A DNA stretch of 28,132 nt from a virus. The stretch lies in IMG/VR virus record IMGVR_UViG_3300031237_000230, positions 1 to 28,132 of that record, one strand, 5' to 3'. Positions 14,121 through 28,132 of the stretch are shown one piece after another. Position numbers and translations under genes: made by a program. The notes beneath the pieces are model-generated. The model was not told the origin of the DNA and searched no databases. It saw only the letters and a program-made list of their open reading frames with translations. Each line of letters begins with the position of its first letter. Within the stretch, counting starts at the first letter, position 1.

Positions 14121-14660
14121 TCAGGCATTGCGGCGCCAGGGCGGGGTCGCTGCCGCGCCGGTGCGTGCAGCGGGCGGAGGTGCCGCTGCGACCGGGCGGG
14201 GCCCCGGGGTGGCGGGCCGCGGTGCGGTGCCAGTGGCTGCACCGGCGTTGGCCGCGGAGTAGCCAGCCACCTTGTTCCGCGCCTCGCGGTGCACGCCGTA
14301 CTTGTCGGGACCGGCGGGCTCGACCTTCAGCGTCACGATCAGCGGCTTGAAGTGCAGCTGCTCGCTGTCGCTGACATGCACCTGGCCCACCGCGTGGCAG
14401 ATGGCGGACAGCGTGCGCTGCGCGATCTCCACCGTCTGCTCGTTGCGGTTCACCAGGTTCAGCTGGTCGAAGATCTTCCGGCGCGCGGAGGGACCTTCCA
14501 GCACCTCGAACACCAGCTTGAGCAACTGTCCGTCGCCGGCCTTGGTCGGCAGCATCTCGCTTTCGATCAGATGCGCGAGGTATTTGCCGGGCGGCAGTAC
14601 CTCCAGCGGGACGGCGGGGGCGACTTCGGTCGCGTCAAAGGTTCCATTGAGGGATGCCAT
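14121..14660 (-). CDS. DUF669 family protein (probable phage ssDNA-binding protein)
   Basis: This 179-residue protein has the DUF669 pattern: PPGKYLAHLIESEMLPTKAG, then LLKLVFEVLEGPSARRKIFD and QLNLVNRNEQTVEIAQRTL. The family sits beside phage recombinases and is regarded as an ssDNA-binding/OB-fold-like partner. The C-terminal 45 residues are Ala/Pro/Thr-rich, as in the disordered tails of SSBs, but end in Arg-Arg-Asn-Ala rather than the usual acidic tip. GGAG lies 7 nt before the ATG at 14660. It follows the Sak4-like ATPase gene by 3 nt, so the two are likely made together. Confidence 0.82.
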   Translation of the reverse strand: MASLNGTFDATEVAPAVPLEVLPPGKYLAHLIESEMLPTKAGDGQLLKLVFEVLEGPSARRKIFDQLNLVNRNEQTVEIAQRTLSAICHAVGQVHVSDSEQLHFKPLIVTLKVEPAGPDKYGVHREARNKVAGYSAANAGAATGTAPRPATPGPRPVAAAPPPAARTGAAATPPWRRNA

Positions 14661-14663
14661 GGG

Positions 14664-15455
14664 TCAGCTCCGGGCTTCGGTGGTGGAGGCGGGCGCGGCG
14701 CTGGGCGGCGTCGCGTAGAAGGGGATGCCGGCGGCGACCTCGGGCCAGGACAGCGGCAGCGTCTCGGCCAGGCCGAAGCGGTTCTTCGCGAGGAAGGCCG
14801 GCCGCTCGGCGGTGTGCAGCAGGCGATCACCGCCGCTGACGCCGCGGACCACCTTCTTGTTGAAGCCGACGTCCGACTTCAGCGTGCTGACGCGATAGTT
14901 CGCGAAGAGCACGGCATCGACATGCTCCTGCACCAGCGCGGAGGCACTGCGGTGCAGCTTGGGTTGATACCGGTCGTAGGGTTCGGTCTCAGGGCTGTCG
15001 AAGCGCTTGATCTCGGCGTGCGCGATCAGGATTACGCCCATGCCTCGCTCGTCGCGCAGTGCGTTCACGCCGTCGAGGAAGCTGCGCCAGGTATCCAGCG
15101 CGGCGAGATACCCCTTGCCGTAGCCGAAGGACTCGATGTCCGGCTGGTTGTGCGTCTGCGCCGTGTGCTGCCAGACCAGCGGCTCCAGCCAGTCGAGGCT
15201 GTCCACCACCAGCGTCTCGAAGTCGTGCGCCTCGGTGTAGAGACTGCCGAGCGCCTCCATCACCGCGTCGAAGCTGCGCAGCACGCCGAAGGTGGAGGCG
15301 CTGATCGTGCCCAGCCCGTCCTCGGTCTGCACCACCACCGGCCGAGGCGCGGAGGTCGCGAACAGCGTCTTGCCGACGCCGGCCACACCATAGGTGAGCA
15401 GCCGCGGCGGGCGCGCGTCGCCACCACGCCGCAGGGATGCGAGGGAGATCGCCAT
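14664..15455 (-). CDS. Sak4-like RecA-fold ATPase (phage AAA_24 type)
   Basis: This 263-residue P-loop ATPase has Walker A GVAGVGKT (23-30) and Walker B TLVVDSLD (81-88), then an ILIAHAEIKRF segment typical of phage nucleotide-binding proteins of the AAA_24/Sak4 type. These proteins act as minimal RecA-like single-strand annealing recombinases. The partner genes fit: DUF669 SSB-like protein, Cas4-like exonuclease and SF2 helicase immediately downstream. The C-terminal 20 residues are Ala/Pro-rich and probably disordered. ATG at 15455 overlaps the previous stop by 1 nt (TGATG). Family call rests on motifs and context; a plain phage ATPase is the alternative. Confidence 0.82.
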   Translation of the reverse strand: MAISLASLRRGGDARPPRLLTYGVAGVGKTLFATSAPRPVVVQTEDGLGTISASTFGVLRSFDAVMEALGSLYTEAHDFETLVVDSLDWLEPLVWQHTAQTHNQPDIESFGYGKGYLAALDTWRSFLDGVNALRDERGMGVILIAHAEIKRFDSPETEPYDRYQPKLHRSASALVQEHVDAVLFANYRVSTLKSDVGFNKKVVRGVSGGDRLLHTAERPAFLAKNRFGLAETLPLSWPEVAAGIPFYATPPSAAPASTTEARS

Positions 15456-15643
15456 CAGTGCGCCTCCCGCTTCGCCGCACGCGGCTTGGCCTTGATGACG
15501 TCGACCTTGATGTCGCCGCCGGCGCGCGCGACGACTTCGGTGAAGCTGTCGAGCGTCGGCTCAAAGGCGGCGACGTCCTTGGCGCGGGCGACGGCATCGC
15601 CCTGCAACGGGATTACGACCTGGATGCGGAGTTCGTGCGCCAT
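15455..15643 (-). CDS. Small conserved phage protein (62 aa)
   Basis: This 62-residue protein begins MAHELRIQVVIPLQGDAVAR and ends in a Lys/Arg-rich tail. It overlaps the genes on both sides by 1 nt (TGATG at 15643 and at 15455), which supports it strongly although it is short. The alternating hydrophobic N-terminus predicts a beta strand followed by a helix. I know no function; its tight coupling to the Sak4-like ATPase suggests an accessory role in recombination. Confidence 0.6.
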   Translation of the reverse strand: MAHELRIQVVIPLQGDAVARAKDVAAFEPTLDSFTEVVARAGGDIKVDVIKAKPRAAKREAH

Positions 15644-16209
15644 CACGCGGCGTCCTTCTGTTCGAGGGTGTAGGAGGGGCGGCCGGTGGCGACGGTGCGC
15701 GCCGGCTCGAAGACCGCCCGGATGCGCGGCGGCCAGGCCGTGAAGCGGCTCTCCGGCACGCGGATCTCGGTGGTGACGTAGTCGGCGGGGTCCTCGCCCC
15801 ACGACACGATGGTGGCGACCGCCGCGGTGAGCTTCGGCTGGTCCCACGCCGCCTTCTTCGGGAGGTCGGCGACGACCTCGAAGCCATCGTCGGGCACGCG
15901 GACACGGCCGGTGTCCTTGCCCTCGGCGCGACGGGCCGCCGCGGCGGAGGCGCCATAGCGGGCATGCAGCGCGTCGTGCAGCAGGTCGGCAAGGTGCTTG
16001 GCATCGGCCTTCAGCGCCCCGACCTCTTCCAGCAGCAGCGCCAGATGATCGACGGGCAAGCGTGCGGCCTGCGCGACGTCCATCTCGCGCAGCTGCGCCA
16101 GAGTGGTTCGGTTGGTCATGGTGGTTCCGTTCAAGGAGGAGGTGCCCGGCTGGATGGGCGATGCAGGCGGCCGGGCGGGCGCGGGCATCGGCATGGGGGT
16201 GGCGCTCAT
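15643..16209 (-). CDS. Hypothetical phage protein (188 aa)
   Basis: This 188-residue protein begins with a Pro/Ala/Met-rich stretch and continues into a helical region (LAQLREMDVAQAARLPVDHL, then ALLLEEVGALKADAKHLADL) and a C-terminal half with DGFEVVADLPKKAAWDQPKL and AAVATIVSWGEDPADYVTTE. No catalytic motif is evident. The ATG at 16209 overlaps the stop of the 42-aa gene as ATGA and is preferred for that reason; an internal ATG at 16119 (MTNRTTLAQL) would remove the low-complexity start and is a fair alternative. Helical packing suggests a structural or scaffold partner of the recombination proteins. Confidence 0.6.
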   Translation of the reverse strand: MSATPMPMPAPARPPASPIQPGTSSLNGTTMTNRTTLAQLREMDVAQAARLPVDHLALLLEEVGALKADAKHLADLLHDALHARYGASAAAARRAEGKDTGRVRVPDDGFEVVADLPKKAAWDQPKLTAAVATIVSWGEDPADYVTTEIRVPESRFTAWPPRIRAVFEPARTVATGRPSYTLEQKDAA

Positions 16210-16334
16210 TGGATGGTCGCCAGCTCGGCGAGCCAGAGGAGCGCGATGAAGCCGCCGGCGAGCAGCGCGCCGCCGGCAAGGTTGCGGAGGGCTTCACCGA
16301 TGGCGTGCACGCGGCGGGCGGTGCGCGGGCTCAC
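16206..16334 (-). CDS. Small predicted membrane protein (42 aa)
   Basis: This 42-residue ORF starts at GTG 16334, overlapping the previous stop as GTGA, and its stop overlaps the next start as ATGA. That double 4-nt overlap is the main support for a gene this short. It has a basic N-terminus (SPRTARRVHAIGEALRN) and one hydrophobic span of about 20 residues (GGALLAGGFIALLWLAELA). Small single-span phage proteins can act in lysis, superinfection exclusion or membrane anchoring, but which applies here cannot be told. Confidence 0.5.
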   Translation of the reverse strand: MSPRTARRVHAIGEALRNLAGGALLAGGFIALLWLAELATIQ

Positions 16335-16768
16335 GGCGTCACCTCGGCGATGGCGTCGGGCGACGGCAGCGGGCCTTCCTCGGCCTGGCGCGCGCGGCGG
16401 GCGCGTTCTCGATCGGCATCCGGCTCCGTGCAGCGCACGCTGCGGCGCGCGATCTCGATCCAGACGTGAAGCGGCAGGACCACCATCGGCGTGGCGCGAT
16501 CGCGCCAAAGGAACAGCGCGTCGTTACCGCCGAGCCAGCGCTCCAGCGTCTTAAAGCCGTCGCCTTCGCCGCGGGCCTTGACCTCTGCCTTTACCGGCTC
16601 GGCGCCGCGGACATAGAGATCGACGTCGGCGCCGTTGCCGCGGTACCGGACGGCGCCAGAGAGCGGCACGCGCTCGGCCCTGAGGCCGCACTTCATGTGG
16701 ATGTCGACGATGGCGCGCTCGCGGCGCAGGCCCTTGTCGCGGGAGGATTTGCCCATGGCCGGTCTCAC
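16331..16768 (-). CDS. Holliday-junction-resolvase-like PD-(D/E)XK protein
   Basis: This 145-residue protein shows KSSRDKGLRRERAIVDIHMK near the N-terminus (Glu in the first helix), GNGADVDLYV (catalytic Asp) and VKAEVKARGE (E-x-K), the archaeal/phage Holliday-junction resolvase pattern. A following segment (FKTLERWLGGNDALFLWRD) is typical of the family. It probably cleaves branched phage DNA. I used GTG 16768, which forms a GTGA overlap with the preceding stop; ATG at 16756 is also plausible and would start at MGKSSRDK. A charged C-terminal tail (about 110-145) is likely disordered. Confidence 0.75.
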   Translation of the reverse strand: MRPAMGKSSRDKGLRRERAIVDIHMKCGLRAERVPLSGAVRYRGNGADVDLYVRGAEPVKAEVKARGEGDGFKTLERWLGGNDALFLWRDRATPMVVLPLHVWIEIARRSVRCTEPDADRERARRARQAEEGPLPSPDAIAEVTP

Positions 16769-17235
16769 GCCGCCTGCCGGTGGGTCTGCATGATCCGGCC
16801 GAGGCGGCGCAGCAGCCCCCCACGGCGGATGCAGTCGCCACCATGGTGGATGAGGTACTCGCCGGCCTCGTCGATCTCCTGCGGCAGGAGGTGGCTCGGC
16901 AGCAGCGGCACGAAGGCGTTGCGGCTGGGGACGAAGACCTCGCCGCGGCCGATCTGCTCGACGGTCGCCCGCGCATCCTGCGGAAACAACTCCATCTGCT
17001 CGGCGCGCAGGCCCTCGGCGTGGTCAGCGCTCTCGGCGCTGCGCTTGAGGTCGTCGCGGATCAGCTTGTTCAGCGCGGTCGAGAGCACCACGGCGAACAG
17101 CTGATCATCCTGGCGAATGGTCTCGGATGCGCTGCGGACGATCTCGCCGACAATGGCGGGGACGTTGCCGCGGTGGTGGACGCTGATACGGGCTTCGCGG
17201 ATCAGCGTCCGCATGCGGTCATGCGGTGTGGTCAT
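16765..17235 (-). CDS. Hypothetical phage protein (156 aa)
   Basis: This 156-residue protein is unrecognised. It has a helical first half (HDRMRTLIREARISVHHRGN, SASETIRQDDQLFAVVLSTA) and a C-terminal half with GGDCIRRGGLLRRLGRIMQT. The ATG at 17235 is chosen because GGAG lies 7 nt upstream; an ATG at 17241 is too close to that site. It overlaps the previous gene by 17 nt and the resolvase-like gene by 4 nt. No membrane segment or catalytic motif stands out. Confidence 0.6.
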   Translation of the reverse strand: MTTPHDRMRTLIREARISVHHRGNVPAIVGEIVRSASETIRQDDQLFAVVLSTALNKLIRDDLKRSAESADHAEGLRAEQMELFPQDARATVEQIGRGEVFVPSRNAFVPLLPSHLLPQEIDEAGEYLIHHGGDCIRRGGLLRRLGRIMQTHRQAA

Positions 17236-17938
17236 GTTCATTCTCCAGGGCGTTGATCCAGAGCGGCAGCCGCTGCAGCGCCTCGCGGGCCTCGCCGCGC
17301 AGATCGGCGAGCAGGGCGCGCGGGCTGCGGCCGGCGAGGGATGCGAAGTCGGTGGGCAGGGTCGCCACGGTGAGGACGGCGGCCGTCCAGTCGGCCCAGT
17401 CGGCACCGATGGGCGTGACCTTCGGCGGCTCGGGCGGCGGGGACGGACGCCTCGTGCGGGGGGTTGGCGGGCCGAGGGTGGCGTGCACGGCATCGCGCAC
17501 AGCGCCGCGCAGCCCGGTCATGGTCGGCGGCGCGCCTTCGGCGCGGGACTGCGCGAAGTAGGCCTCCATCGCGGCGCGCCCCGCGGCCTGGGCCTGCTCC
17601 TCGCGGCCGCCAGCCAGCTCCTCGTAGCGGTGGGCGGTACTGGTGGAGATGCCCGCATCCGCCAGGGCCTGGGCCTTCGAAGTTCCCACCGCTGGGAACT
17701 TCGAGCCACCGCCTGAGCCGCCATGGTCTGCGCGTTCCAGCTCCCGGCTCAGCTCACCGATGCGCACGCAGGCGCGCAGGTGGATCTCACGCACCCAGAC
17801 CTCGAGGTCGCGGTCGTCGCGTTGGCGGGCATAGGCGGCGAGCGCCGAAGCCTTGTCGCGGATCTCCGAGGCCTCATCGATGCGGGCGCATTCGGCCAGC
17901 GCGGTGCGGGCCTGCTCGTAGCGGACCAGCGCGGGCAT
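17219..17938 (-). CDS. Conserved phage protein with ParB/HTH-like segment (239 aa)
   Basis: This 239-residue protein opens LVRYEQARTALAECARIDEA, then EIRDKASALAAYARQ and REIHLRACVRIGELSREL, a helical pattern I associate with phage and plasmid proteins carrying a ParB-like HTH. KAQALADAGISTSTAHRYEEL (about 88-108) looks like the HTH. A Pro-rich linker (about 157-173) and a C-terminal helical domain follow. Its start forms TGATG with the preceding gene. A perfect 12-bp stem-loop lies inside the coding sequence at 17677-17704. Likely a DNA-binding regulator or partition-like protein; the evidence is pattern-based only. Confidence 0.65.
   Translation of the reverse strand: MPALVRYEQARTALAECARIDEASEIRDKASALAAYARQRDDRDLEVWVREIHLRACVRIGELSRELERADHGGSGGGSKFPAVGTSKAQALADAGISTSTAHRYEELAGGREEQAQAAGRAAMEAYFAQSRAEGAPPTMTGLRGAVRDAVHATLGPPTPRTRRPSPPPEPPKVTPIGADWADWTAAVLTVATLPTDFASLAGRSPRALLADLRGEAREALQRLPLWINALENEHDHTA
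17677..17704. repeat. Perfect 12-bp inverted repeat inside a coding sequence
   Basis: TCGAAGTTCCCA (17677-17688), loop CCGC, and TGGGAACTTCGA (17693-17704) pair without mismatch. It falls within the 239-aa gene, coding for the residues around KFPAVGTSK. It might be a protein-binding palindrome or an mRNA hairpin. Confidence 0.7.
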
Positions 17939-18168
17939 CAGGCGGTCACCGCGGCCGGCACGCCGGCATGGGACGGCTGCGGGATGCTGGTGGCGTCGCG
18001 GGTCTGCGCCGCCTCGAAGGCCTCAATATCCTCGAGGCGGTAGGCCACGCGGCCGCCCAGCTTCAGGAAGGCGGGCCCCTGGCCCAACCAGCGCCAGCGC
18101 TCCAACGTGCGGGGGCTGAGGCACCAGCGGCGCGCCACCTCCGTCTGCGTCAGATGCTTCACTGTCAT
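17938..18168 (-). CDS. HTH_17/AlpA-like small DNA-binding protein
   Basis: This 76-residue protein has a MerR/excisionase-type winged helix (VKHLTQTEVARRWCLSPRTL, ERWRWLGQGPAFLKLG, VAYRLEDIEAFEA). Proteins like this act as excisionases or transcription activators of prophage genes. It is the first gene of the long leftward operon and has GAGGGAAG just upstream of the ATG at 18168. Its stop/start overlap with the next gene is TGATG. A role in switching on the early phage operon, or in excision with the serine recombinase at 22532, is inferred from family and position. Confidence 0.8.
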   Translation of the reverse strand: MTVKHLTQTEVARRWCLSPRTLERWRWLGQGPAFLKLGGRVAYRLEDIEAFEAAQTRDATSIPQPSHAGVPAAVTA

Positions 18169-18221
18169 CGGTGCTTCCCTCGCGCTGGTTCGAACAACCG
18201 CGGGGAAGATCGCTTCAGGAC

Positions 18222-18270: not shown

Positions 18271-19206
18271 CTACAGGTCGAAACCCCAGGCGCCCTTCAC
18301 CGAGGAGACGTAGGGTTTCAGGAGGTTCCACTTCACGCCACCAAAGTGCCGATGCAGCGTCCCATGGTCAGTGAGCTCGCGGATCGGCACGCGCCTGCCG
18401 GCATGGAAGGCGTCGACCAGCTTGCGGATGGCCTGGATGTGGTCGTCCGACCTGAAGACGATTGGTTCGCCGCCGTGGATGCGCAGGCGTGTTCCATCCG
18501 GCGATAGGTCCAGCGGGCCCGGGGCGGCCGCCACTGCGACACCACGCATGCGGGCGTCCAGGATCTCGCCGCTCACGGCCAGGCCGTCCTCTGCGGCCAG
18601 CACGTCGCGGATCGGCACCAGGATCGTGCCAGGCAATGCCACCCCGCGAAGACGGGCAGCGCGACTGGTGCACAGGATGATGACATCCCGCGGATAGGGC
18701 CGTGCCTGCAGTGCGGCCGCGACCTGGGCCCGCACCGAGGCCTCCCACATTCGGCGCGCGAACCATGTCTGGACGCGCCCCGGACGCTTGCCGAGGCGGG
18801 CATCGCCCATCTCCCAGAGCAGTCCATCGATCAACGGCCGTGGCGTGCGCGCGGATGGAAGCGCCAGATCGGCTCCGATCGCGGTAAGGGTGTTGGTGAT
18901 TTCGACGCGATGCCGGGCCAGTCGCGCGGCCGGCACCGCGACCAGACCGCCGGAGGGGCTGAAATAGGCAAACCCGCCCGCCTTCTCGGATCGAATCAGC
19001 GTCACCGGCGCGTCGTCGTGATCCGCGAGCGATGCCGAGACGGTCTCGTGACCGTGGGGCACCAGCAGCTCCCTGGCCCGCAACATGCCAACGGGGCCGG
19101 GCGACATCTCCGCCACGGCCCCGCTCAGGAAGGGCTCCTCCAGGTCCAGCACCTCGAGGAGGAGAGCGACAGCCTCGGCCGAAAGCCGGGGCGGTTCGTC
19201 AGACAT
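18271..19206 (-). CDS. Unrecognised protein (311 aa), last gene of the XRE-ImmA cassette
   Basis: I do not recognise this 311-residue protein. Visible segments are DEPPRLSAEAVALLLEVLDL at the N-terminus; VEITNTLTAIGADLALPSAR; a central LLWEMGDARLGKRPGRVQTW; a hydrophobic strand DVIILCTSRAARLRGVAL followed by GTILVPIRDVLAAEDGL; and a C-terminal helix-rich part (SDDHIQAIRKLVDAFHAG, VPIRELTDHGTLHRHFGGVK) that could be a winged helix. There is no signal peptide. Its ATG at 19206 overlaps the previous gene by 8 nt. It closes a four-gene minus-strand unit with XRE and ImmA genes, so it is probably expressed in the lysogenic state. Defence, immunity or regulation are all open. Confidence 0.7.
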   Translation of the reverse strand: MSDEPPRLSAEAVALLLEVLDLEEPFLSGAVAEMSPGPVGMLRARELLVPHGHETVSASLADHDDAPVTLIRSEKAGGFAYFSPSGGLVAVPAARLARHRVEITNTLTAIGADLALPSARTPRPLIDGLLWEMGDARLGKRPGRVQTWFARRMWEASVRAQVAAALQARPYPRDVIILCTSRAARLRGVALPGTILVPIRDVLAAEDGLAVSGEILDARMRGVAVAAAPGPLDLSPDGTRLRIHGGEPIVFRSDDHIQAIRKLVDAFHAGRRVPIRELTDHGTLHRHFGGVKWNLLKPYVSSVKGAWGFDL

Positions 19207-20398
19207 CCCGCAGCATCCGCCAGCGCTTCAGGTACTTCTCACCGACCAGGCGTTCGCGGTCGGTGCGGTCCTTCAAATCGCAACCCTTCGGCATTGAGAT
19301 GGTGACCGGCAGCGTGCGACCGCCGCGCACCCCCGGCGTCGCGTGGAACTTGATGGTGAAGCGGGCCTGCGTGACCTTGAAGCCGCCGGCCAGCGGATCG
19401 TTGTCGCAAAAGCGCGCCTCCGCCATCTGCCAGATGCTGCGCTCCGCCCCGCGCATGCATTCCAGCGTCACACGCTCGGCCTGCGTTTCGTAGGGCATCA
19501 GCCGCAGCAGGCTGACCTTCACCGATCCGATGTTGTCCTCGACATCGGTCGGAAAGTCGAAGGGCTGCAGCAGGTGGTCCAGTGAATACTGGCGGATTGG
19601 GATGCGGTCGCCATCGAACGGCGCGCCCAGCATATGTTCGGCGAACAGCCGCACCAGGTCCTCGCGGGTCTCCCGCGCCTGCGCCACCACCTCGATGGTG
19701 CCGGAGGCGGGCTCATAGGTGATGGCCGCCTCGACCACCGGGCGGAAGGGAAGCCGGTCGAGCTTGCCGTCGACGAAGGCGCGCCGATCACCGGCGCGGC
19801 CTTCGCGGTAGATGGCGACCTGGATCAGCGCCGCATCCTCCCCGTCGAGCGAGGGGCGGGAACGGTCGCAGATCTCCACCTCGACATGCTTCGTGTCGAA
19901 GTGCGTGGCGATGGCCGCCTTGAAGGCCGTGTAGGGATCACCGTCACGGGGCACCGTCAGGCCGGGCAGGCATTCGAAGCCGTCCCACATGCGGCCATAG
20001 CGGCGGTCATCGGCATAGCGGACTTCCTCCGCGTGACCGAAGCCGGCAGGGTCCTTGAGGAACATCCACAGCGCCCGGGCATGCCCGTTCTCCAGGGAGT
20101 CCAGAATGTCGGCAGCATTGGAGATCGAGTAGAGCGCGGCCTGGCCGGCTTCGTCGGTCATGGCGCCTACGCGGTCGGCGTCGTTCATGACGCGCAGCCG
20201 TTCGGCGTCGTGCATGGCATCCACCGCCCGCAGCAAGGGTGGCACGACGACGTTGGCCGCACCCTCCCACACCACATCGGGCGGCATTTCGGCCTGGATG
20301 AACGTGAAATAGGAGCGGAGCGACGCGGGGGGCGTGCTCCGGATGAAATCCGGGACTGTCGGCACAGGGGGTCTTTCGATCAGGGCCACGCCAGCCAA
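19199..20398 (-). CDS. Unrecognised protein (399 aa), XRE-ImmA cassette
   Basis: This 399-residue protein is not in a family I can name. It begins at TTG 20398, supported by GGAG seven nt upstream. Features include VPDFIRSTPPASLRSYFTFI near the N-terminus, a helical stretch with DAMHDAERLRVMNDADRVG, a segment KHVEVEICDRSRPSLDGEDA, strands with EAAITYEPASGTIEVVAQAR, and a basic C-terminus (MPKGCDLKDRTDRERLVGEK). No catalytic motif is clear. It is separated from the ImmA gene by 84 nt containing nested inverted repeats and overlaps the next gene by 8 nt, so these two genes probably act together, for example as a complex. Confidence 0.7.
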   Translation of the reverse strand: MAGVALIERPPVPTVPDFIRSTPPASLRSYFTFIQAEMPPDVVWEGAANVVVPPLLRAVDAMHDAERLRVMNDADRVGAMTDEAGQAALYSISNAADILDSLENGHARALWMFLKDPAGFGHAEEVRYADDRRYGRMWDGFECLPGLTVPRDGDPYTAFKAAIATHFDTKHVEVEICDRSRPSLDGEDAALIQVAIYREGRAGDRRAFVDGKLDRLPFRPVVEAAITYEPASGTIEVVAQARETREDLVRLFAEHMLGAPFDGDRIPIRQYSLDHLLQPFDFPTDVEDNIGSVKVSLLRLMPYETQAERVTLECMRGAERSIWQMAEARFCDNDPLAGGFKVTQARFTIKFHATPGVRGGRTLPVTISMPKGCDLKDRTDRERLVGEKYLKRWRMLRDV

Positions 20399-20418
20399 TC
20401 CGGCGCTCCGCTAATCGA

Positions 20419-20459
20419 CGTATCAAAAATCAGTGTGCGGGCACAAGCGAAAAGATACG
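20419..20459. repeat. Nested inverted repeats in the ImmA-399aa intergenic interval
   Basis: CGTATC (20419-20424) pairs with GATACG (20454-20459), and inside it TGTGC (20434-20438) pairs with GCACA (20441-20445); both are centred near 20439. This is an 84-nt intergenic interval, so the structure may be an operator, a promoter element or an mRNA processing hairpin controlling the last two genes. Confidence 0.45.
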
Positions 20460-20482
20460 CACAGCAGCGTAGTCTCGGCGGG

Positions 20483-21205
20483 TCAGCCGAAGAGCGTGGG
20501 AGGCCCGGCCGAATCGGCCAAAAGACCGAGTTTCCGCAACCGAACCTGCGCCGCCTCGGCCGAGACCTGGAAGCTGGCCATGGTGTGCCGCTCCGCCTCG
20601 GCGGCCGGCGGCGTGCCGATGACGGCAGCGCCATGGATCCCCCGGTCCCGGAGGAGGTCCCCAACCGCCCGACGCACCTGTTGGGCCGGCATCAGGATGG
20701 CGCCGCTGAAATAGCCGGCCTGCCATTCCAGCCAATCGAACTCGCTGATCCCCATCATGCTGTCGCGCTTGCAGACTGTCCGCGGCTCCGCGCGCGCCGC
20801 CTCGAACATGTGCGGCGGCGCGGCGAAAAGCTGATCAAAGACAGCCCGGTGGTAGAAGGCGTGGCCCAGTTCATGGGCCAGCGTGGTGCGCAGCCGATTC
20901 TGCCGATTGGCTTGCTCGGTCAGCTGAATGGAGATCAGGACCTGCGGCGGTTCGTCTGGCAGGAAGCACGTCATCCCCTCGACGTCGTCGCCCTCGTCGG
21001 AGAGGTCGGCATACAGGTCGAGACTGCTGCTGTGCTGGTCGACCAGTACCGTGAGGTCGTCGGTGGAGATCGGGAAACAGACATTGCCGTGGCGCTGCTG
21101 CAGGAAGGCCGTGACCAGCCGCTCGCAATCGCGGTCGATCTCTGCTGCCCGCAGGAAGAGCCTCTGCGGAAAGCGCCCCGATTTATCGATCGACCAGCTC
21201 GCCAC
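20483..21205 (-). CDS. ImmA/IrrE family metallo-endopeptidase
   Basis: This 240-residue protein has the zinc-peptidase motif HELGH (111-115, in TLAHELGHAFYH) and a likely third ligand E160 in WLEWQAGYFSGAILMP, as in ImmA/IrrE proteins. ImmA of ICEBs1 cleaves its XRE repressor ImmR to induce the element, and IrrE/PprI cleaves DdrO in the DNA-damage response. The start is GTG 21205, with AGGAT about 8 nt upstream, 10 nt after the stop of the XRE gene. The adjacent XRE protein is the natural substrate candidate. This pair probably controls induction of the prophage or of the cassette. Confidence 0.9.
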   Translation of the reverse strand: MASWSIDKSGRFPQRLFLRAAEIDRDCERLVTAFLQQRHGNVCFPISTDDLTVLVDQHSSSLDLYADLSDEGDDVEGMTCFLPDEPPQVLISIQLTEQANRQNRLRTTLAHELGHAFYHRAVFDQLFAAPPHMFEAARAEPRTVCKRDSMMGISEFDWLEWQAGYFSGAILMPAQQVRRAVGDLLRDRGIHGAAVIGTPPAAEAERHTMASFQVSAEAAQVRLRKLGLLADSAGPPTLFG

Positions 21206-21215
21206 GCATGCAATC

Positions 21216-21542
21216 CTATTTCGAGAGGGCTTTCCGGAACGCCTTGAACGCCCGGACCCTAGTCGCCGAATCTGTCGCGGCGGCGCGGAGATCCTCGGGG
21301 ATCTTGCCGGCCAGGACGAACAGATCATCCGCGTCCACGGATAAGGCCCGGGCGAATTCTCTGATCAGCTGGTCGGAGGTCGGGCTGCGGCGGTCGTGCT
21401 CGATGTCGTTGAGGTATTGCGGCGATATCGATCCCGTGCCGTCCTCCTTCTGGACAGCGGCGGCCAGGTCCTTCTGGCTGATCCCCTGCTTCTTCCTGGC
21501 GGCAATGATGGCCTGTCCCAGGGTGGTGGTCGGCGTTGTCAT
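21216..21542 (-). CDS. XRE family HTH repressor (ImmR/DdrO-like)
   Basis: This 108-residue protein has an N-terminal Cro/C1 HTH (LGQAIIAARKKQGISQKDLA, then SISPQYLNDIEHDRRSPTSD; about 8-65) and a C-terminal helical tail of about 40 residues. ATG at 21542 is chosen over a GTG at 21578 because AAGGG lies just upstream and the HTH begins at the usual distance. It heads the four-gene unit with the ImmA gene. The region upstream has repeated CTTAGC/GCTAAG half-sites that are likely its operators. By analogy to ImmR/ImmA it would repress until cleaved. Confidence 0.88.
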   Translation of the reverse strand: MTTPTTTLGQAIIAARKKQGISQKDLAAAVQKEDGTGSISPQYLNDIEHDRRSPTSDQLIREFARALSVDADDLFVLAGKIPEDLRAAATDSATRVRAFKAFRKALSK

Positions 21543-21831
21543 CGCCCTTGCATCCGGCGAAATCCTTGCCTGTGGCACTTAGCGGAGTGGCGTAGTCGGC
21601 TGCTAAGTCCTACGTCAAGCCGCGAAGTTGGACGTGGCGAAGGATTTAGCTTCCGCGATGGGACCCTACGCCAGCGCCGATTCGCGGCGCGACGACCAGG
21701 GTCACGCTGAGACCGGCCCGGCAACGCCCTACGCGCGATTTCGCTGCGGTGCTTTTGTTCCCGCGGGCCTTCGCTAAGAGATTGTTTTCGCTGTTCTTCT
21801 CGGTTGGGCGACACAATCTTGCCTCCCAGCC
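21543..21831. promoter_or_regulatory. Divergent control region with CTTAGC/GCTAAG half-sites
   Basis: This 289-nt interval lies between the leftward XRE gene and the rightward recombinase chain. ACTTAGC (21577-21583) and GCTAAGT (21602-21608) form a 7-bp inverted repeat with an 18-nt gap, and GCTAAG recurs at 21773-21778. AGATTGT (21779-21785) and ACAATCT (21813-21819) make another inverted pair. CCCTACGC occurs at 21664-21671 and 21727-21734. It probably holds both promoters and the XRE operators. I see no gene in it. Confidence 0.5.
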
Positions 21832-22032
21832 ATGCCACCTAACCCCGCCAATCCCCACCTCCCGCCGCACCTCCGCGAGGTCTGCAGCATCCTGGCCGCC
21901 GGCCTGCTGCGGCTGCGCAGCCGCGCTGCTGAGGAAGCTGCGCGCGAGGCTGCTGACCGGGGAGAGCGTGGCCTACACTTCCCGGCACCCCAGCGCGTGG
22001 ATGCGAACCGGACCAACCGGAGACCCGCATGA
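21832..22032 (+). CDS. Small protein (66 aa) upstream of DUF2924
   Basis: This 66-residue protein (HLREVCSILAAGLLRLRSRA, then EEAAREAADRGERGLHFPAP) is helical with a C-terminal RGERGLHFPAPQRVDANRTN segment. I associate short proteins like this with the gene before DUF2924 in alphaproteobacterial recombinase loci. Its stop overlaps the DUF2924 ATG as ATGA (22029-22032), which is strong support for translation. No clear Shine-Dalgarno precedes ATG 21832. Its role is unknown; it may assist the recombinase. Confidence 0.6.
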   Translation: MPPNPANPHLPPHLREVCSILAAGLLRLRSRAAEEAAREAADRGERGLHFPAPQRVDANRTNRRPA

Positions 22033-22535
22033 CACGCGCCACCAAATCCAAAGCCGGCAACCCGCCGGCGCCCACCATCCCCGCCATCCCACCGGCCGAC
22101 GTGCTCGGCCGCCTGGCGGCATTGAAGACCGCCGCCACGCCGGACCTGAAGCAGCAATGGCGGGAACTCTTCGCCGCCGAGCCGCCGCCCTACAACCGTC
22201 GCTTCCTGGAGAGCCGCCTGGCCTACCGCATCCAGGAACTGGCCTACGGCGGCCTAAAGCCCGAGACCATCCAGCGCCTCGAGGCCCTGGGTGAACAGCT
22301 CGACGGTGGTAATCCCGTCCTGCGGCGTATCCGCGGCGACGACAAGCCGATCAGCGGCACGCGGCTGATCCGGGAGTACCAGGGCGTCGAGCACAGCGTG
22401 ACGGTGCTGCACGACGGCTATGAGTATCAGGGCCGCCCCTACCAGTCGCTGTCCTCCATCGCCCGCGCCATCACCGGCACGCGCTGGAATGGCTGGCTGT
22501 TCTTTGGCCTGAAGAACCGGAGGGGCACGGCATGA
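22029..22535 (+). CDS. DUF2924 domain-containing protein
   Basis: This 168-residue protein has the DUF2924 pattern: DLKQQWRELFAAEPPPYNRR, then FLESRLAYRIQELAYGG, LIREYQGVEHSVTVLHDGY and YQGRPYQSLSSIARAITGT, followed by RWNGWLFFGLK. The family occurs almost always with a large serine recombinase and is thought to help it, though its biochemistry is not established. The C-terminal half resembles the small DNA-binding domain seen in phage and plasmid proteins. It overlaps both neighbours by 4 nt (ATGA). Confidence 0.88.
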   Translation: MTRATKSKAGNPPAPTIPAIPPADVLGRLAALKTAATPDLKQQWRELFAAEPPPYNRRFLESRLAYRIQELAYGGLKPETIQRLEALGEQLDGGNPVLRRIRGDDKPISGTRLIREYQGVEHSVTVLHDGYEYQGRPYQSLSSIARAITGTRWNGWLFFGLKNRRGTA

Positions 22536-23884
22536 AGCGCAAGCCAGCCGCCGACGCCGCGATACCGGCCACGGTCAGGAAGATCCGCGCCGCGGTGTAC
22601 ACGCGCAAGTCGAGCGAGGAGGGGCTCGACATGGAGTTCAACTCGCTCGACGCCCAGCGCGAGGCATGTGAGGCCTATATCACCAGCCAGCGGTCGGAGG
22701 GCTGGGTGTTGGTGCGCGATCGCTACGACGACGGCGGCGTGTCCGGCGGGACGCTCGAGCGGCCTTCGCTGCGCCGCATGCTGGCCGACATCGAGCGCGG
22801 CCTCATCGATGTGGTGGTCGTCTACAAGATCGACCGGCTGTCGCGCGCGCTGATGGACTTCGCCAAGCTGGTGGAGGTGTTCGACGCGAACAGTGTGACC
22901 TTCGTGTCCGTGACGCAGAGCTTCAACACGACCACCAGCATGGGCCGGCTGACGCTGAACATCCTCCTCAGCTTCGCGCAGTTCGAGCGGGAGGTCATCG
23001 GCGAGCGCATCCGCGACAAGGTGGCGGCGTCACGGGCGCGCGGAATCTGGATGGGGGGCTTCGTGCCACTCGGCTACGACGCCAAGGACCGCAAGCTGCT
23101 GGTGAATGAGGCTGAGGCGGCGCTGGTGCGGCGCATCTTCGATGGCTTCGTCCAGACGGAATCCGGCACGAAGCTGGTGCAGGCCCTTCGCGCCGAGGGC
23201 GCCACCACGAAACGCGGCCGCGCCTTCACCAAGAGCGACATCTATCGGGTGCTGAGCAATCGCACCTATCTCGGCGAGGCCATGCACAAGGGGAAGTCGC
23301 ACCCGGGCGAGCATGCTGCCATCGTGCCACAGGCCATGTGGGATGCGGCGCACGCCCTGCTGGCGATCAGCCCGAAGACACGCGCCAATCGCACCCGCTG
23401 CCAAACGCCCTCGCTGCTGCGCGGGCTGATCTTCGGCAGCGACGGCCGCGCCATGTCGCCCACCCATGCGCGGGGCCGCCGCGGCCAGCAGTATCGCTAC
23501 TATGTCAGCCAGTCGGTCCTGAAGGGTAGTGCCGCGGACGGGCCGGCCATCGCGCGCATCTCCGCCGCAGAGATTGAGGGCGCGGTCATTGCCCAGGTCC
23601 GGGGGCTGCTGCGTCAGCCGGAGGTGGTGCTTGGCGCCTGGCGCGCGGCGCGGTCCGCAGCGCCGGACATGACGGAGGACGAGGCGCGGCTGGCGCTGGA
23701 GCGGCTGGACCCGCTGTGGGAGGAGCTCTTCCCCGCCGAGCAGGCGCGCATCATTCGCCTCCTGGTCGACCGGGTGGACGTCGGGCCTGGCGGCGCCGAT
23801 GTGCGGCTGAAGCTTGAGGGGCTGGCGAGCCTGGCGCGGGACCTGGCGACGCCGCCCGCCGAACCGGCGAAGGCCGCGGCATGA
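22532..23884 (+). CDS. Large serine recombinase (integrase)
   Basis: This 450-residue recombinase has the resolvase domain (about 18-165): YTRKSSEEG with the probable nucleophile S27, DRYDDGGVSGGTLERPSLRR and YKIDRLSRALMDF. The recombinase domain follows (about 180-320, with RIFDGFVQTESGTKLVQALR and LSNRTYLGEAMHKGKSHPGE). Next comes a segment where other members have a zinc ribbon (LLRGLIFGSDGRAMSPTHAR); no cysteine pair is present here. The last 100 residues are helical. It probably integrates and excises the element. Start and stop overlap the neighbours as ATGA, so four genes form one chain. The attachment sites are not identified in the window. Confidence 0.9.
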   Translation: MKRKPAADAAIPATVRKIRAAVYTRKSSEEGLDMEFNSLDAQREACEAYITSQRSEGWVLVRDRYDDGGVSGGTLERPSLRRMLADIERGLIDVVVVYKIDRLSRALMDFAKLVEVFDANSVTFVSVTQSFNTTTSMGRLTLNILLSFAQFEREVIGERIRDKVAASRARGIWMGGFVPLGYDAKDRKLLVNEAEAALVRRIFDGFVQTESGTKLVQALRAEGATTKRGRAFTKSDIYRVLSNRTYLGEAMHKGKSHPGEHAAIVPQAMWDAAHALLAISPKTRANRTRCQTPSLLRGLIFGSDGRAMSPTHARGRRGQQYRYYVSQSVLKGSAADGPAIARISAAEIEGAVIAQVRGLLRQPEVVLGAWRAARSAAPDMTEDEARLALERLDPLWEELFPAEQARIIRLLVDRVDVGPGGADVRLKLEGLASLARDLATPPAEPAKAAA

Positions 23885-24315
23885 CCGGCTCCGCGCAGAT
23901 GCTGACCGTCCGGGTGCCGCTGGCGGCCCGGAAACAACGGGGCGGGCGGAAGCTGGTCCTGACGCCGGGCGGCATGGCGCCCCGCGGCGCCGCGGCTGCC
24001 GACACCACTCTGGTGAAGGCGCTGGCCCGGGCATTCAGGTGGCGGCGAATGATGGAGTCCGGCCGGTACGGCACGATCAATGAGCTGGCGGCGGCCGAGA
24101 GGATCAACTCGTCCTACGTCTCCCGCCTTCTGCGGCTGACGCTGCTGGCACCGGATATCGTCGAGGCGATTCTCGACGGGCGGCAGCCGGAGGGCATGAC
24201 GCTGCCGGGGCTGATGGAGCCGTTTCCGGTGGAGTGGGGGCAGCAGCGCCCGTTCCACTTTTGCGCTCCGCGGCAGGCGCCCCCTCCAAGCCCGGTGCCG
24301 CGGCCTGCTGGATAG
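23881..24315 (+). CDS. HTH companion of the serine recombinase
   Basis: This 144-residue protein contains a ParB-like HTH: INELAAAERINSSYVSRLLR then LTLLAPDIVEAILDGRQPEG. Its N-terminus is basic (LAARKQRGGRKLVLTPGG). Proteins like this usually close the DUF2924-recombinase locus. The C-terminal 25 residues (after PFPVEWGQQRP) turn Pro-rich and do not look like a folded end, so the natural C-terminus may have been replaced where the low-GC cargo begins. It overlaps the recombinase by 4 nt. A directionality or regulatory role is inferred. Confidence 0.75.
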   Translation: MTGSAQMLTVRVPLAARKQRGGRKLVLTPGGMAPRGAAAADTTLVKALARAFRWRRMMESGRYGTINELAAAERINSSYVSRLLRLTLLAPDIVEAILDGRQPEGMTLPGLMEPFPVEWGQQRPFHFCAPRQAPPPSPVPRPAG

Positions 24316-24490
24316 CCCGCTTGAACTGCTTTGGCCTTGTGCCCGCGGCCACGCACATATCCTGGCGCCCCGCCTCAGAGACTGAATCGATATTGTTGCC
24401 ATGGCCACTATTTCGGCTATCTGCGATGGTGATTGCGGTGCCGTTTCCGCCGACATGACCTTGTACCGGCCCGGACCAGGAGGAGGGTAA
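24316..24490. other. Intergenic junction between recombinase locus and low-GC cargo
   Basis: No gene can be supported here. Base composition becomes more AT-rich between about 24360 and 24425 (a GATATTGTTG segment near 24390), marking the left border of the cargo. A promoter for the rightward operon at 24491 is expected in this interval, but I see no clear -35/-10 pair. This is also a plausible location for an attachment-site remnant. Confidence 0.35.
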
Positions 24491-24577
24491 ATGGTGGGAA
24501 TGAAGTACCGACTTCCATTCGATATCAAGGGAGTAGCGCTTGTCACGGGGCGGGCGGTAAGAGGCACGAAGGCATGA
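24491..24577 (+). CDS. Short leader ORF (28 aa) coupled to the DUF932-like gene
   Basis: The ORF starts at ATG 24491, 3-4 nt after a very strong Shine-Dalgarno (AGGAGGAGG), encodes 28 residues beginning MVGMKYRLPFDIKG, and stops at TGA 24575-24577, overlapping the next ATG (24574) as ATGA. The DUF932-like gene itself has only a weak ribosome site, so this ORF may supply its translation. No family is known to me. It may be a leader peptide or the remnant of a longer gene. Confidence 0.5.
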   Translation: MVGMKYRLPFDIKGVALVTGRAVRGTKA

Positions 24578-25542
24578 CGATCGCCGCTCGACCTTGGAAA
24601 CCTCGTAACCCCACAGAAGCATTCTTCCCGGTGGAAATGCGTCCACTGTTTATGAGGGGTTCAGGCCGTTCCGAAAGTTACAACAAGCTTGATCGGCATT
24701 TCGCTGTCGTTGATGTGGAGCGTCAGAACCCCTTCGCTGTGGTAACTGAAGAATACAAACTGGTTACGAATGAGGCGGCTTACGTAATGGCAGCCGAAGT
24801 GATGCAGAAAGTATTTCACACCACTCAGCTAAGTGACATGGAATGCTTGAATATCACCATGCCAAAGAGCCGATCCTTCTGTCACATCGATTTGATTCAT
24901 AAGACCGCTGACTTCTCCCCGTGGGAAAGGGACAAGTGGACCGCCTTTCTTCGTATCAGCAATAGTTACAACCGCACCCGTCTTCTGCGCTTCGAACTCG
25001 GCTTCTGCCGCTGGATCTGCTTGAACGGCATCATTTTTGGAAGCAAGAGCATAGAGTTCAGCTACGCCCACACGCGGCGCGGCATGGACCGGGTGGATCG
25101 CTTCGCCGAAAACATTGGGGACATCCGCAAGCTGGAAACCGCACTGACCGAGAAGCTGCACCAGTTGAAGCGCTATCATGTACCTGCGAAGGAAATGCTG
25201 CCCCTGCTGTGCCGCGCCTTCGACATCAAGGCGACCGCAGAAGTGGTCAAGAAGCACAGGCGCGTTGACGAGCTTCTGGTGCTGAGGGAGCAGACCAAGA
25301 CCCTGACCCAGGCTTACTTTTCGGACATGGGGGCCCACGGGTATGCTGCGCTGAACGTCCTGACGGACTACGCTTCGCGGCCGGCGGGTATGTTCGCACC
25401 GGAAGCCAGCATGCATGGCCTGCAGCATAAGGCGGGCAGTTGGATGGACGACTTCATTTCGGCCATCAAGAACGCTGATTTTTCCTTTGACAGCTACCTG
25501 GCCGACTACCGCCAAACGGCTGAAGTGATTGAGTCCTTATGA
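24574..25542 (+). CDS. DUF932-like protein
   Basis: This 322-residue protein shows the DUF932 (phage/plasmid-like) pattern: YNKLDRHFAVVDVERQNPFA, then EEYKLVTNEAAYVMAAEVMQ, RISNSYNRTRLLRFELGF, and CRWICLNGIIFGSKS. The C-terminal part is helical (KLHQLKRYHVPAKEMLPLLC, DELLVLREQTKTLTQAYFSD). DUF932 proteins occur on plasmids and phages; some have been suggested to act in DNA metabolism, but function is not settled. The ATG at 24574 is set by the ATGA overlap with the leader ORF and the gene itself overlaps the next by 4 nt. GC content is clearly lower than in the prophage region. It is probably the partner of the GmrSD-like enzyme. Confidence 0.75.
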   Translation: MTIAARPWKPRNPTEAFFPVEMRPLFMRGSGRSESYNKLDRHFAVVDVERQNPFAVVTEEYKLVTNEAAYVMAAEVMQKVFHTTQLSDMECLNITMPKSRSFCHIDLIHKTADFSPWERDKWTAFLRISNSYNRTRLLRFELGFCRWICLNGIIFGSKSIEFSYAHTRRGMDRVDRFAENIGDIRKLETALTEKLHQLKRYHVPAKEMLPLLCRAFDIKATAEVVKKHRRVDELLVLREQTKTLTQAYFSDMGAHGYAALNVLTDYASRPAGMFAPEASMHGLQHKAGSWMDDFISAIKNADFSFDSYLADYRQTAEVIESL

Positions 25543-27365
25543 TCAAGTCGGTCAACAACTACCCGGTCTCGCAGCTCTTCGACATCGAAGCAGGTGTGGT
25601 CTATGCGATCCCACGCTACCAGCGCGAATACACTTGGAAGGTGGATCAGTGGGAGGCGCTCTTCGATGACGTAGAAGAGAACGACCCCGGGTACTTCCTG
25701 GGTTCGATCATCTGCATCAACCAGACCACTGACACCCTTGCGGTGCAGCGCCTGGAGGTGGTGGACGGCCAGCAACGGCTGACGACGCTGTCTCTGCTAT
25801 TCGCGGCGCTGCACCAGTCGTTGAAGCAGCACGAGAAAGACCTGGACGACGATCAGCGCGTGGAGCTGATCAACCTCAAGCGGAAGCTGGTGCTGAAGAA
25901 GGGAAACGACCATCTGCGCGTGGTCCCGCAAATTCAGAACCACAACCAGAATGACTACCGTGCAGTATTGTCCGAGGTGGGTGTGATCAGTCAATGCGAC
26001 GCGCCAGCCTATGCGGGAAACCGTAAGATCTTCCGCGCCTTCCGCTACTTCCAGGCGCGCATCGAAAAGCTGGTGTATGGTGAAAACGACCGCCTGGCGT
26101 CGATCTTGGCCTTCCTCGACAAGGTGAGCCAGGCGTGCCTAGTGAAGATCGAAGTGGCCAGCCACGCCGATGCCTATACGCTGTTTGAATCGCTCAACAA
26201 CCGGGGTACGCCGCTCACTGCCGTCGACCTGATCAAGAACAAGCTGCTGGCGCGGCTGGAAGTCACGGAACCAGGAAAGGTAGACTACTACTTTGACGTA
26301 TGGAACAAACTTCTGGGATATCTCGGGGATGACTACAGCATTCAGGAGCGTTTTTTCCGGCACTACTACAACGCATTTAAAGACCCGCTGAACGAGCCGT
26401 TCCGCAAGGGCGAGGACAAAAAGAGGGACCCGCTGGGCCCAGTGGCCTCACGGTCCAACCTGATCCAGATTTACGAGAAGCTGATCAACCAAGACGCCAA
26501 GGAGCACCTGCAGGCTATTCGTGCCGCTGGCCAGCTGTATGCACTGATGCTTGCCCGGAACTCAGACGAGGCCTGGGCGCCGCTGGACAAGCCGCTTAAA
26601 GATCTAGACCGAATTCAGGGCGCTCCCTGCTACCTGTTGATGCTGTACCTGCTGGTACGGCGTGATGCGCTGGCCATAAACGTGGTGCATCTGGAAAATA
26701 TCGCGCAGCTGCTGGTGTGCTTCTTCGTTCGACGCAACCTCACTGACACACCGCCCACCCGCGACCTGACGCGCTTTTTCATGGCCGCCATCGACAAGGT
26801 GGCGGAACTTTCGGGCGATGCTGTGGTGACGGCCATCCGAGACCAATTGCTAGCGGTATCGGCCAGCGATGAGACCTTCCGCAGCAAGCTGGAAGGCGCC
26901 ATCTACGAGGAAAATGCGGGAGTCACCCGGTTTGTGCTGTGCGCCTTGGCCGAGCAGAGCATGACAAAGGAGACCTGGGTCGATCTATGGAAGTACGAAG
27001 GCAAGCTCTTCGTGTGGACCATCGAACACATCTTCCCGCAGGGTGACAACATTCCTGCGTCTTGGGTGGCCATGATCGCGGGCGGAGACGAGAAGGAGGC
27101 CAAGGCCATTCAGGAGACCCATGTACACAAGCTGGGGAATCTGACGATCTCGGGCTTCAACAGCGCGCTGGGCAACAAGAGCTTTGAAGGCAAGCGCGAC
27201 CGCACCGATAGCAAGGGCCGCGAAGTGGGTTACAAGAACGGACTCAGGCTGAACGCCGAACTGGCAACGGCCGAGGCGTGGAGCGTTGATAAGATCGATG
27301 CGCGCACAACGTCGCTGGTGGACCAGGTGATGCGCCTTTTCGCCATGACGGGGGGCCGGCCATAA
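25539..27365 (+). CDS. GmrSD-like single-chain enzyme (DUF262-DUF1524)
   Basis: This 608-residue protein fuses an N-terminal DUF262 domain (AIPRYQREYTWK at 23-34; VVDGQQRLTTL with DGQQR at 76-80) to a C-terminal DUF1524 domain with the HNH-like motif EHIFPQ (496-501) and HKLGNLTISGFN plus GNKSF (530-549). This layout is that of GmrSD-type modification-dependent (type IV) restriction enzymes, where DUF262 supplies NTP hydrolysis and DUF1524 cuts DNA carrying modified bases. Between the two is a long helical region (about 100-480). The start overlaps the DUF932-like gene as ATGA, so the two form a unit. Domains look intact, so the protein is probably active. Nearby methylases may explain the need for modification-aware restriction. 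Confidence 0.88.
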   Translation: MIKSVNNYPVSQLFDIEAGVVYAIPRYQREYTWKVDQWEALFDDVEENDPGYFLGSIICINQTTDTLAVQRLEVVDGQQRLTTLSLLFAALHQSLKQHEKDLDDDQRVELINLKRKLVLKKGNDHLRVVPQIQNHNQNDYRAVLSEVGVISQCDAPAYAGNRKIFRAFRYFQARIEKLVYGENDRLASILAFLDKVSQACLVKIEVASHADAYTLFESLNNRGTPLTAVDLIKNKLLARLEVTEPGKVDYYFDVWNKLLGYLGDDYSIQERFFRHYYNAFKDPLNEPFRKGEDKKRDPLGPVASRSNLIQIYEKLINQDAKEHLQAIRAAGQLYALMLARNSDEAWAPLDKPLKDLDRIQGAPCYLLMLYLLVRRDALAINVVHLENIAQLLVCFFVRRNLTDTPPTRDLTRFFMAAIDKVAELSGDAVVTAIRDQLLAVSASDETFRSKLEGAIYEENAGVTRFVLCALAEQSMTKETWVDLWKYEGKLFVWTIEHIFPQGDNIPASWVAMIAGGDEKEAKAIQETHVHKLGNLTISGFNSALGNKSFEGKRDRTDSKGREVGYKNGLRLNAELATAEAWSVDKIDARTTSLVDQVMRLFAMTGGRP

Positions 27366-27483: not shown

Positions 27484-28017
27484 TCAGTCTGCCGCCTCTG
27501 CCTTGGCGCCAACCTCATTCGCCATCCCCCGGAACGCACCCGGCCAGCCGCCGTGCTCGCCGATGATCTTGTCGATCTTCGGCATCAGTTCGGTGGTGCG
27601 GGTGAGCGCCAGGATGATGCGGCGGTAGTGGAGGATGTCTTCGTCGGTGAGGACTCGGCCTGGGCTGGCTTTCTTGCCGCCCTTTGCGGCGCGATCCTTC
27701 AGCCACTTCTGGGCGGGTTGATAGCCGCCGATGTGGCAGTTCCAGGCGATTTCGGGGACGGTCTCGAACCAGCGCGTGCCGCTGATGTAGACGCGGCCGG
27801 CCTGGAAGGTCGGGGCCTGAGAGACGCGGGCTTCGCCGCTGCCGGCGAGGCGGATGCCCTTGGGGTCGGCGAAGATCGGCAGTCTCTCGGGGCCGAAGCG
27901 ATGTTCGGCATCGAGCAGATGGGTGGCGACGAGATCGGTGCCGATCGGGACCAGCGCCTCGAACAGCGCTGCGCTGCCGGGTAGCGGCACGCGGGCGAAA
28001 TCGCTTTTCAGATAATA
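27484..28017 (-). pseudogene. Type ISP restriction-modification enzyme, C-terminal fragment
   Basis: The minus strand encodes the C-terminal specificity part of a type ISP (LlaBIII-like) R-M enzyme: YLKSDFARVPLPGSAALFEA, VYISGTRWFETVPEIAWNCH, IGGYQPAQKWLKDRAAKGG and LTDEDILHYRRIILALTRTT. The helicase, nuclease and methylase parts are missing; upstream the reading frame meets the end of an IS630-type transposase. The gene is thus cut at about 28011-28017, where two TA dinucleotides (28013-28014 and 28016-28017) fit an IS630 target site. The fragment is probably inactive unless expressed as a separate subunit. Stop is TGA 27484-27486. Confidence 0.82.
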
Positions 28018-28132
28018 CCAACTCCCACGGATCAGAACCCATGCGCCCAGTTGCGCAGGCCGATGGACATGATGCGCCAGGGCTGATCGACGAGGCGATT
28101 CCAGTGGTGGCAACAGTGACCGACGATGTCGT
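28015..28132 (-). mobile_element. IS630 family insertion sequence (one end)
   Basis: The transposase end (28032-28132) plus about 15-20 nt to a TA at 28013-28017 makes one terminus of an IS630 element inserted in a type ISP R-M gene. The TAATACCAACTCCC stretch (28013-28026) may be its terminal inverted repeat; the other terminus is outside the window, so this cannot be verified here. Confidence 0.6.
28032..28132 (-). CDS. IS630 family transposase, C-terminal end (runs off window)
   Basis: The minus strand from the right edge reads DIVGHCCHHWNRLVDQPWRI then MSIGLRNWAHGF and a stop at 28032-28034. This is the conserved C-terminal end of IS630 transposases (AHCCDAWN...DQPWKIMSIGLRDWAH-like). 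The catalytic DDE part lies outside the window. The element's end should be between this stop and about 28014, within some 20 nt, next to the type ISP fragment it interrupts. Confidence 0.85.
   Translation of the reverse strand, partial: DIVGHCCHHWNRLVDQPWRIMSIGLRNWAHGF

Follow-up and report, generated by a model that had tools for sequence, protein, structure and literature searches.

We analyzed a 28,132-base virus record from IMG/VR (IMGVR_UViG_3300031237_000230), the whole of which is called the window below. Toward its end, a short leader open reading frame (ORF), a DUF932 gene, and a gene for a single-chain GmrSD-type enzyme follow one another on the plus strand (Table 1). The DUF932 reading frame is already open from 24433, and the start was called at the ATG at 24574. 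A sequence-only reading had listed these three ORFs with their coordinates, domain calls, and 4-nucleotide (nt) ATGA overlaps, all of which we confirmed from the sequence and Pfam. It had also proposed that the two proteins may form an unreported system. We found that the association of DUF932 with GmrSD is real, recurrent, and rare, and that it is best taken as a mobile pair of accessory genes from type I bacteriophage exclusion (BREX) loci rather than a new stand-alone system.

Table 1. Positions of the gene pair and other features in the window
Feature	Position	Strand	Basis or remark
28-codon leader ORF (28 aa)	24491..24577	+	sequence
DUF932 gene (322 aa from ATG)	24574..25542	+	Pfam PF06067
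Single-chain GmrSD gene (608 aa; DUF262 + DUF1524)	25539..27365	+	Pfam, motifs, fold model
ATGA overlap, leader ORF/DUF932	24574-24577	+	sequence
ATGA stop/start overlap, DUF932/GmrSD	25539..25542	+	sequence
Tract nearer BREX-borne copies (3' third of DUF932 plus GmrSD)	25140..27365	+	sliding identity
Mobile-element module: DUF2924, large serine recombinase, 144-aa ORF	22029..24315	+	Pfam; common to Roseococcus
Type ISP restriction-modification protein, C-terminal part	27484..28132	-	PF18135 E 2.4e-18; ends with record

Occurrence of the pair in type I BREX loci

We found relatives of the window DUF932 (50-92% identity) in 16 further distinct loci (designated by L numbers), 13 of which are type I BREX loci in which the gene lies between pglX and pglZ. 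An intact GmrSD start adjoins DUF932 in 13/16 loci, counting L010, where the GmrSD gene runs off the contig end; clear deletion remnants of GmrSD were seen in 2/16. Two loci (L029 and L059) were reached through GmrSD and were thus excluded as independent support for the pairing. The hosts belong to distant lineages: Zoogloea, Acidovorax, Pseudomonas, Lamprocystis, and, for two loci, Desulfobacterota. The sequence-only reading had named adjacency limited to one clade as fatal to its own proposal; adjacency is not so limited, and the pair nearly always lay in defense loci.

As a control, 30 ordinary DUF932 genes of Pseudomonas were inspected, and none had a detectable GmrSD of the same kind or PglX within ~1.5 kb. 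The pairing in the clade differed from this control with a Fisher's test value of 3e-11, a figure that is descriptive only because the loci are related by descent. The pairing of DUF932 with GmrSD exceeds chance. A species scan of 84,980 genomes yielded 11 loci, which is a lower bound since two strict peptide patterns were used. Random draws of 300 Burkholderiales genomes (DUF932 profile) and 321 Gammaproteobacteria genomes (GmrSD profile) returned the seed genomes alone, indicating that the clade is rare. The window DUF932 had no match in a search of phage records, and Pseudomonas veronii was the only match in a plasmid search.

The interval between pglX and pglZ is a variable slot (L006:12774-14665, L013:12808-14681, L014:12776-14562, L029:952-3771, and L058:8367-12858). 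Its cargo in these BREX loci comprises PtuA/HNH-like pairs and a MAD3-like ATPase with a second gene, and further a TrlF-like ATPase, AIPR, and DUF3644 proteins.

Features of the GmrSD and DUF932 proteins

The GmrSD protein matched the Pfam families GmrSD_N (E 5.7e-38) and GmrSD_C (E 1.7e-15). Its DUF262 domain carries the NTPase motif DGQQR at residues 76-80, which is invariant in 26 relatives, and a further motif, SLNNRG, at 218. The DUF1524 domain carries the HNH nuclease motif EHIFP at 496-500 together with H530, N534, and N541; the motif of the GmrSD family is DHIYP (PMC8565348). Both the NTPase and the HNH motifs are intact, with almost no variation among relatives, and the protein was rightly described at the outset as having type IV restriction motifs.

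In the structure model (predicted local distance difference test [pLDDT] score, 86.8), the two domains are joined by a linker, as in BrxU. The best structural matches were DndI and SspE, and BrxU was less close. The alignment with DndI had a Z score of 20.9 over 527 residues and a root mean square deviation (rmsd) of 5.8; with BrxU (7p9m), Z was 11.7 over 434 residues and the rmsd was 18.1. The latter rmsd suggests that the DUF262 and DUF1524 domains are probably placed differently in the model than in BrxU.

BrxU is a GmrSD-family type IV enzyme encoded in the pEFER BREX island (PMC8565348). It cuts DNA containing modified cytosine and complements BREX against modified phages (PMC8565348, PMC10952713). 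The window enzyme shares its single-chain DUF262-DUF1524 architecture and its fold, and the closest relatives of the window gene (L003, L006, and L008) likewise lie within type I BREX operons. However, the window copy itself lies outside BREX and is structurally nearer to DndI and SspE. Moreover, brxU is located between brxC and pglX, whereas the BREX copies of the pair are located between pglX and pglZ, and BrxU was described without DUF932. DndI and SspE, DUF262-DUF1524 effectors that sense phosphorothioate (PMC11662687, PMC9646914), have the same NTPase and HNH motifs, and DndI senses the phosphorothioate mark of the host and spares marked DNA (PMC11662687). In contrast to the window enzyme, both are part of DNA phosphorothioation systems; the pair had no identified dnd or ssp modification genes next to it, and a single SspF-like ATPase was found in L010, a locus resembling the methylation-associated defense system (MADS). 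Relatives of GmrSD at ~50% identity adjoin HsdM/HsdS and a cytosine methyltransferase. From the likeness to DndI and BrxU, the intact motifs, and these methyltransferase neighbors, we infer that the GmrSD works as a modification-sensing restriction enzyme alongside a methyltransferase-based system.

The DUF932 protein passed the Pfam gathering cutoff (PF06067, E 2.4e-11; 44.3 bits versus a cutoff of 23), and its matches to PF06067 and phrog_1221 are weak; among NCBIfam models, none exceeded its cutoff. It belongs to a divergent clade tied to BREX and GmrSD and in this respect differs from the DUF932/TIGR03299 proteins of phages and plasmids, whose ordinary genes, where tested, did not adjoin GmrSD. 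YfjQ and YafZ of Escherichia coli are DUF932/TIGR03299 proteins. The structure model (pLDDT, 78.6; predicted template modeling score, 0.64) matched only predicted models of phage DUF932/TIGR03299 proteins. No convincing solved relative emerged from Foldseek, VIA-align 2, or a profile search across solved sequences. The Whirly fold was considered as well and was set aside, as its topological likeness (Z 2.9) is too weak to be used. The titles and abstract openings of the literature naming DUF932 mention no biochemical function for it.

Coupling, mobility, and loss of the two genes

The leader ORF is preceded by a strong Shine-Dalgarno sequence, AGGAGGAGGG. In the Roseococcus copy, the frame and the Shine-Dalgarno sequence are kept, and all substitutions (8/8) change the amino acid. 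The BREX copies of the pair have no leader ORF at this place. A conserved peptide was therefore rejected as a component of the system: the leader noted in the sequence-only reading holds up as a real ORF, and its role would be at most that of a translational relay. The ATGA overlap between DUF932 and GmrSD was also found in L003, L006, L011, L012, L015, L004, and L029. Such overlaps are at most evidence for translational coupling and lend no support to the earlier assumption that the proteins are made in a fixed ratio. A promoter scan gave no signal exceeding chance.

Both genes are under purifying selection, with ratios of nonsynonymous to synonymous substitution rates of about 0.04-0.10 overall and about 0.08-0.10 between the window and its relatives. 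The protein identities of DUF932 and GmrSD correlate across loci (r = 0.96; 78 locus pairs). At ten loci with full PglX, the correlation was 0.986 for DUF932 with GmrSD versus 0.928 for DUF932 with PglX.

The GC content is 0.547 in DUF932 and 0.581 in GmrSD, compared to 0.69 upstream and 0.65 downstream. In blastn comparisons with the BREX copies, the alignments began at 24569-24608 and ended at 27353-27363, which are the bounds of the two genes. The GC drop and this restriction of homology to the two genes bear out the proposal that the unit and the prophage were acquired separately. Sequence identity to the copy in Roseococcus (L005) was 92-98% up to ~25140 and then 73-83% in sliding comparison to ~25620, an interval in which L006 reached 83-95%. 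The identity to the Zoogloea BREX copy was 64% at the DUF932 start and rose to 83-95%. A mosaic breakpoint lies inside DUF932 at ~25140, with Roseococcus-prophage-like sequence upstream and BREX-like sequence downstream.

In L010 (Lamprocystis), the pair is located downstream of genes matching mad7 (E 9e-225) and mad8 (E 2.4e-51) of MADS. Directly upstream of the pair (L010:9890-9985), we detected a piece of the 3' end of pglX, QYDGKAGDRINDHHLTL (88% over 50 nt, E 5e-9). It is direct evidence of the pair's export from a BREX operon. A pglX remnant was also sought upstream of the window pair and was not found.

The two genes are not always together. GmrSD without DUF932 was found in L043, L044, L020, L021, and L058, and DUF932 without GmrSD in L005, L009, and L018. 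In the BREX loci L043 and L044, which are otherwise near-identical to DUF932-bearing BREX loci, GmrSD directly follows pglX; the junction is an ATGA overlap in L044, and in L043 the stop precedes the start by three bases. On the GmrSD tree, L043 falls within a group of DUF932-bearing loci (support 94/97), and the absence of DUF932 there is thus a loss. Relatives of the window element (L020 and L021) carry GmrSD after an ImmA/IrrE-type gene; in L020:4066-6833, GmrSD has an ATGA overlap with this gene (capP model, E 1.7e-60) in DUF932's stead. The Roseococcus genome (L005) contains the window element (14659-18174 at 94% and 19126-25591 at 83%) with DUF932, a 17-codon GmrSD remnant, and then type I hsdM genes. 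In L009, a BREX locus, DUF932 is kept and both ends of the deleted GmrSD are still visible. L059 shows the reversed order, GmrSD-DUF932. The lone DUF932 of L018 (9986-10951; 64% identity) lies between phage head and other phage genes, which are on the opposite strand; with a GC content of 0.48 versus 0.65-0.68 in its surroundings, it resembles inserted cargo. The GmrSD tree, several deep forks of which are poorly supported, calls for at least five changes in the state of DUF932. DUF932 is a frequent, optional companion of GmrSD.

Elsewhere in the window, the DUF2924, recombinase, and 144-aa ORF products have 97%, 95%, and 84% identity to those in L002/L005, and other genes of the record match phage primase, helicase, Cas4-type exonuclease, and ParB-methyltransferase. 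The minus-strand protein at the record end also matched a PADLOC type IIG model (E 1.2e-20). Its type ISP C-terminal specificity domain suggests that a further restriction-modification gene adjoins the pair.

A probable accessory module of BREX and the alternatives

We lean toward reading the pair as a mobile accessory module of type I BREX, in which a modification-sensing GmrSD is joined by a nonessential DUF932 helper. Its usual place is between pglX and pglZ, and further copies are found at non-BREX sites, namely the window prophage and the MADS island with its attached pglX scrap. The GmrSD would be a modification-sensing, nucleoside triphosphate-dependent DNA endonuclease. In a BrxU-like mode, it would restrict phages with modified DNA that escape the resident methyltransferase-based system; in an alternative, DndI-like mode, it would read the host mark and cut unmarked DNA. 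The loss pattern of DUF932 points to a companion that is useful but not indispensable and that might conceivably modulate or extend GmrSD or BREX, for example, by binding DNA or phage proteins.

Several points weigh against this view. The 28-kb window contains no BREX gene, so joint work with BREX would there require BREX at another site in the host. Each partner is found alone, GmrSD even in BREX loci near-identical to DUF932-bearing ones (L043, L044) and also in L020, L021, and L058, and DUF932 either outlives GmrSD (L005, L009) or stands by itself (L018); a joint function is thus not obligatory. Linkage in a single operon could account for much of the correlated divergence, and the matches of the DUF932 model include no solved relative. 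We entertain only tentatively a broader possibility, that the pair is a transferable two-protein defense module that plugs into BREX, MADS, type ISP, or type I neighbors, with DUF932 widening or licensing GmrSD recognition.

It is unlikely that the two genes are independent cargo of the pglX-pglZ slot, adjacent through hitchhiking in one operon. The PtuAB-like, MAD3-like, TrlF-like, AIPR, and DUF3644 genes in the same slot would agree with such a history, as would the repeated gains or losses of DUF932, the GmrSD deletions with DUF932 kept, and the reversed order in L059. However, the pair occurs together at two non-BREX sites (the window and L010) and is still close in L059 despite the reversal, DUF932 tracks GmrSD more closely than it tracks PglX, and the other slot genes recur next to DUF932 less often. 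We consider it improbable that DUF932 is a counter-defense or self-protection protein restraining GmrSD or BREX, with the genes behaving as a tempered effector. Although ordinary DUF932 genes are phage-borne and that of L018 lies by itself among phage structural genes, L043 and L044 retain GmrSD and BREX in the absence of DUF932, and L020 and L021 retain GmrSD alone, indicating that no antidote is needed there. An obligate antidote is ruled out by L043 and L044, and our searches found no sequence or fold link of DUF932 to a known anti-restriction protein. Little credence is left for the proposal of the sequence-only reading, a self-contained restriction or abortive-infection system. The presence of the pair outside BREX in the window and L010, under purifying selection, speaks for it; against it, 13/16 of the other loci are BREX, each partner was lost alone several times, and the leader is not conserved. 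The pair instead appears to be an exported type I BREX accessory with a dispensable DUF932, and a GmrSD in BREX was already known from BrxU.

A 2026 survey of BREX also reports GmrSD-type HNH enzymes as accessory effectors, along with OLD-ATPase/nuclease pairs, inside BREX core loci (PMC12839542), and differs from our results in that DUF932 does not appear in its main text. A literature search that did not cover preprints and most subscription journals found no report linking BREX and DUF932, and the novelty of this link is therefore provisional; the presence of GmrSD in BREX is already published.

The BREX accessory pair provides a recurrent link to defense loci for DUF932, a family that is common in phages and plasmids and has no known role. 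Natural BREX loci with and without DUF932 make its role directly testable. The findings also document that two accessory genes can move out of BREX as an unbroken pair and become part of another defense system or a prophage.
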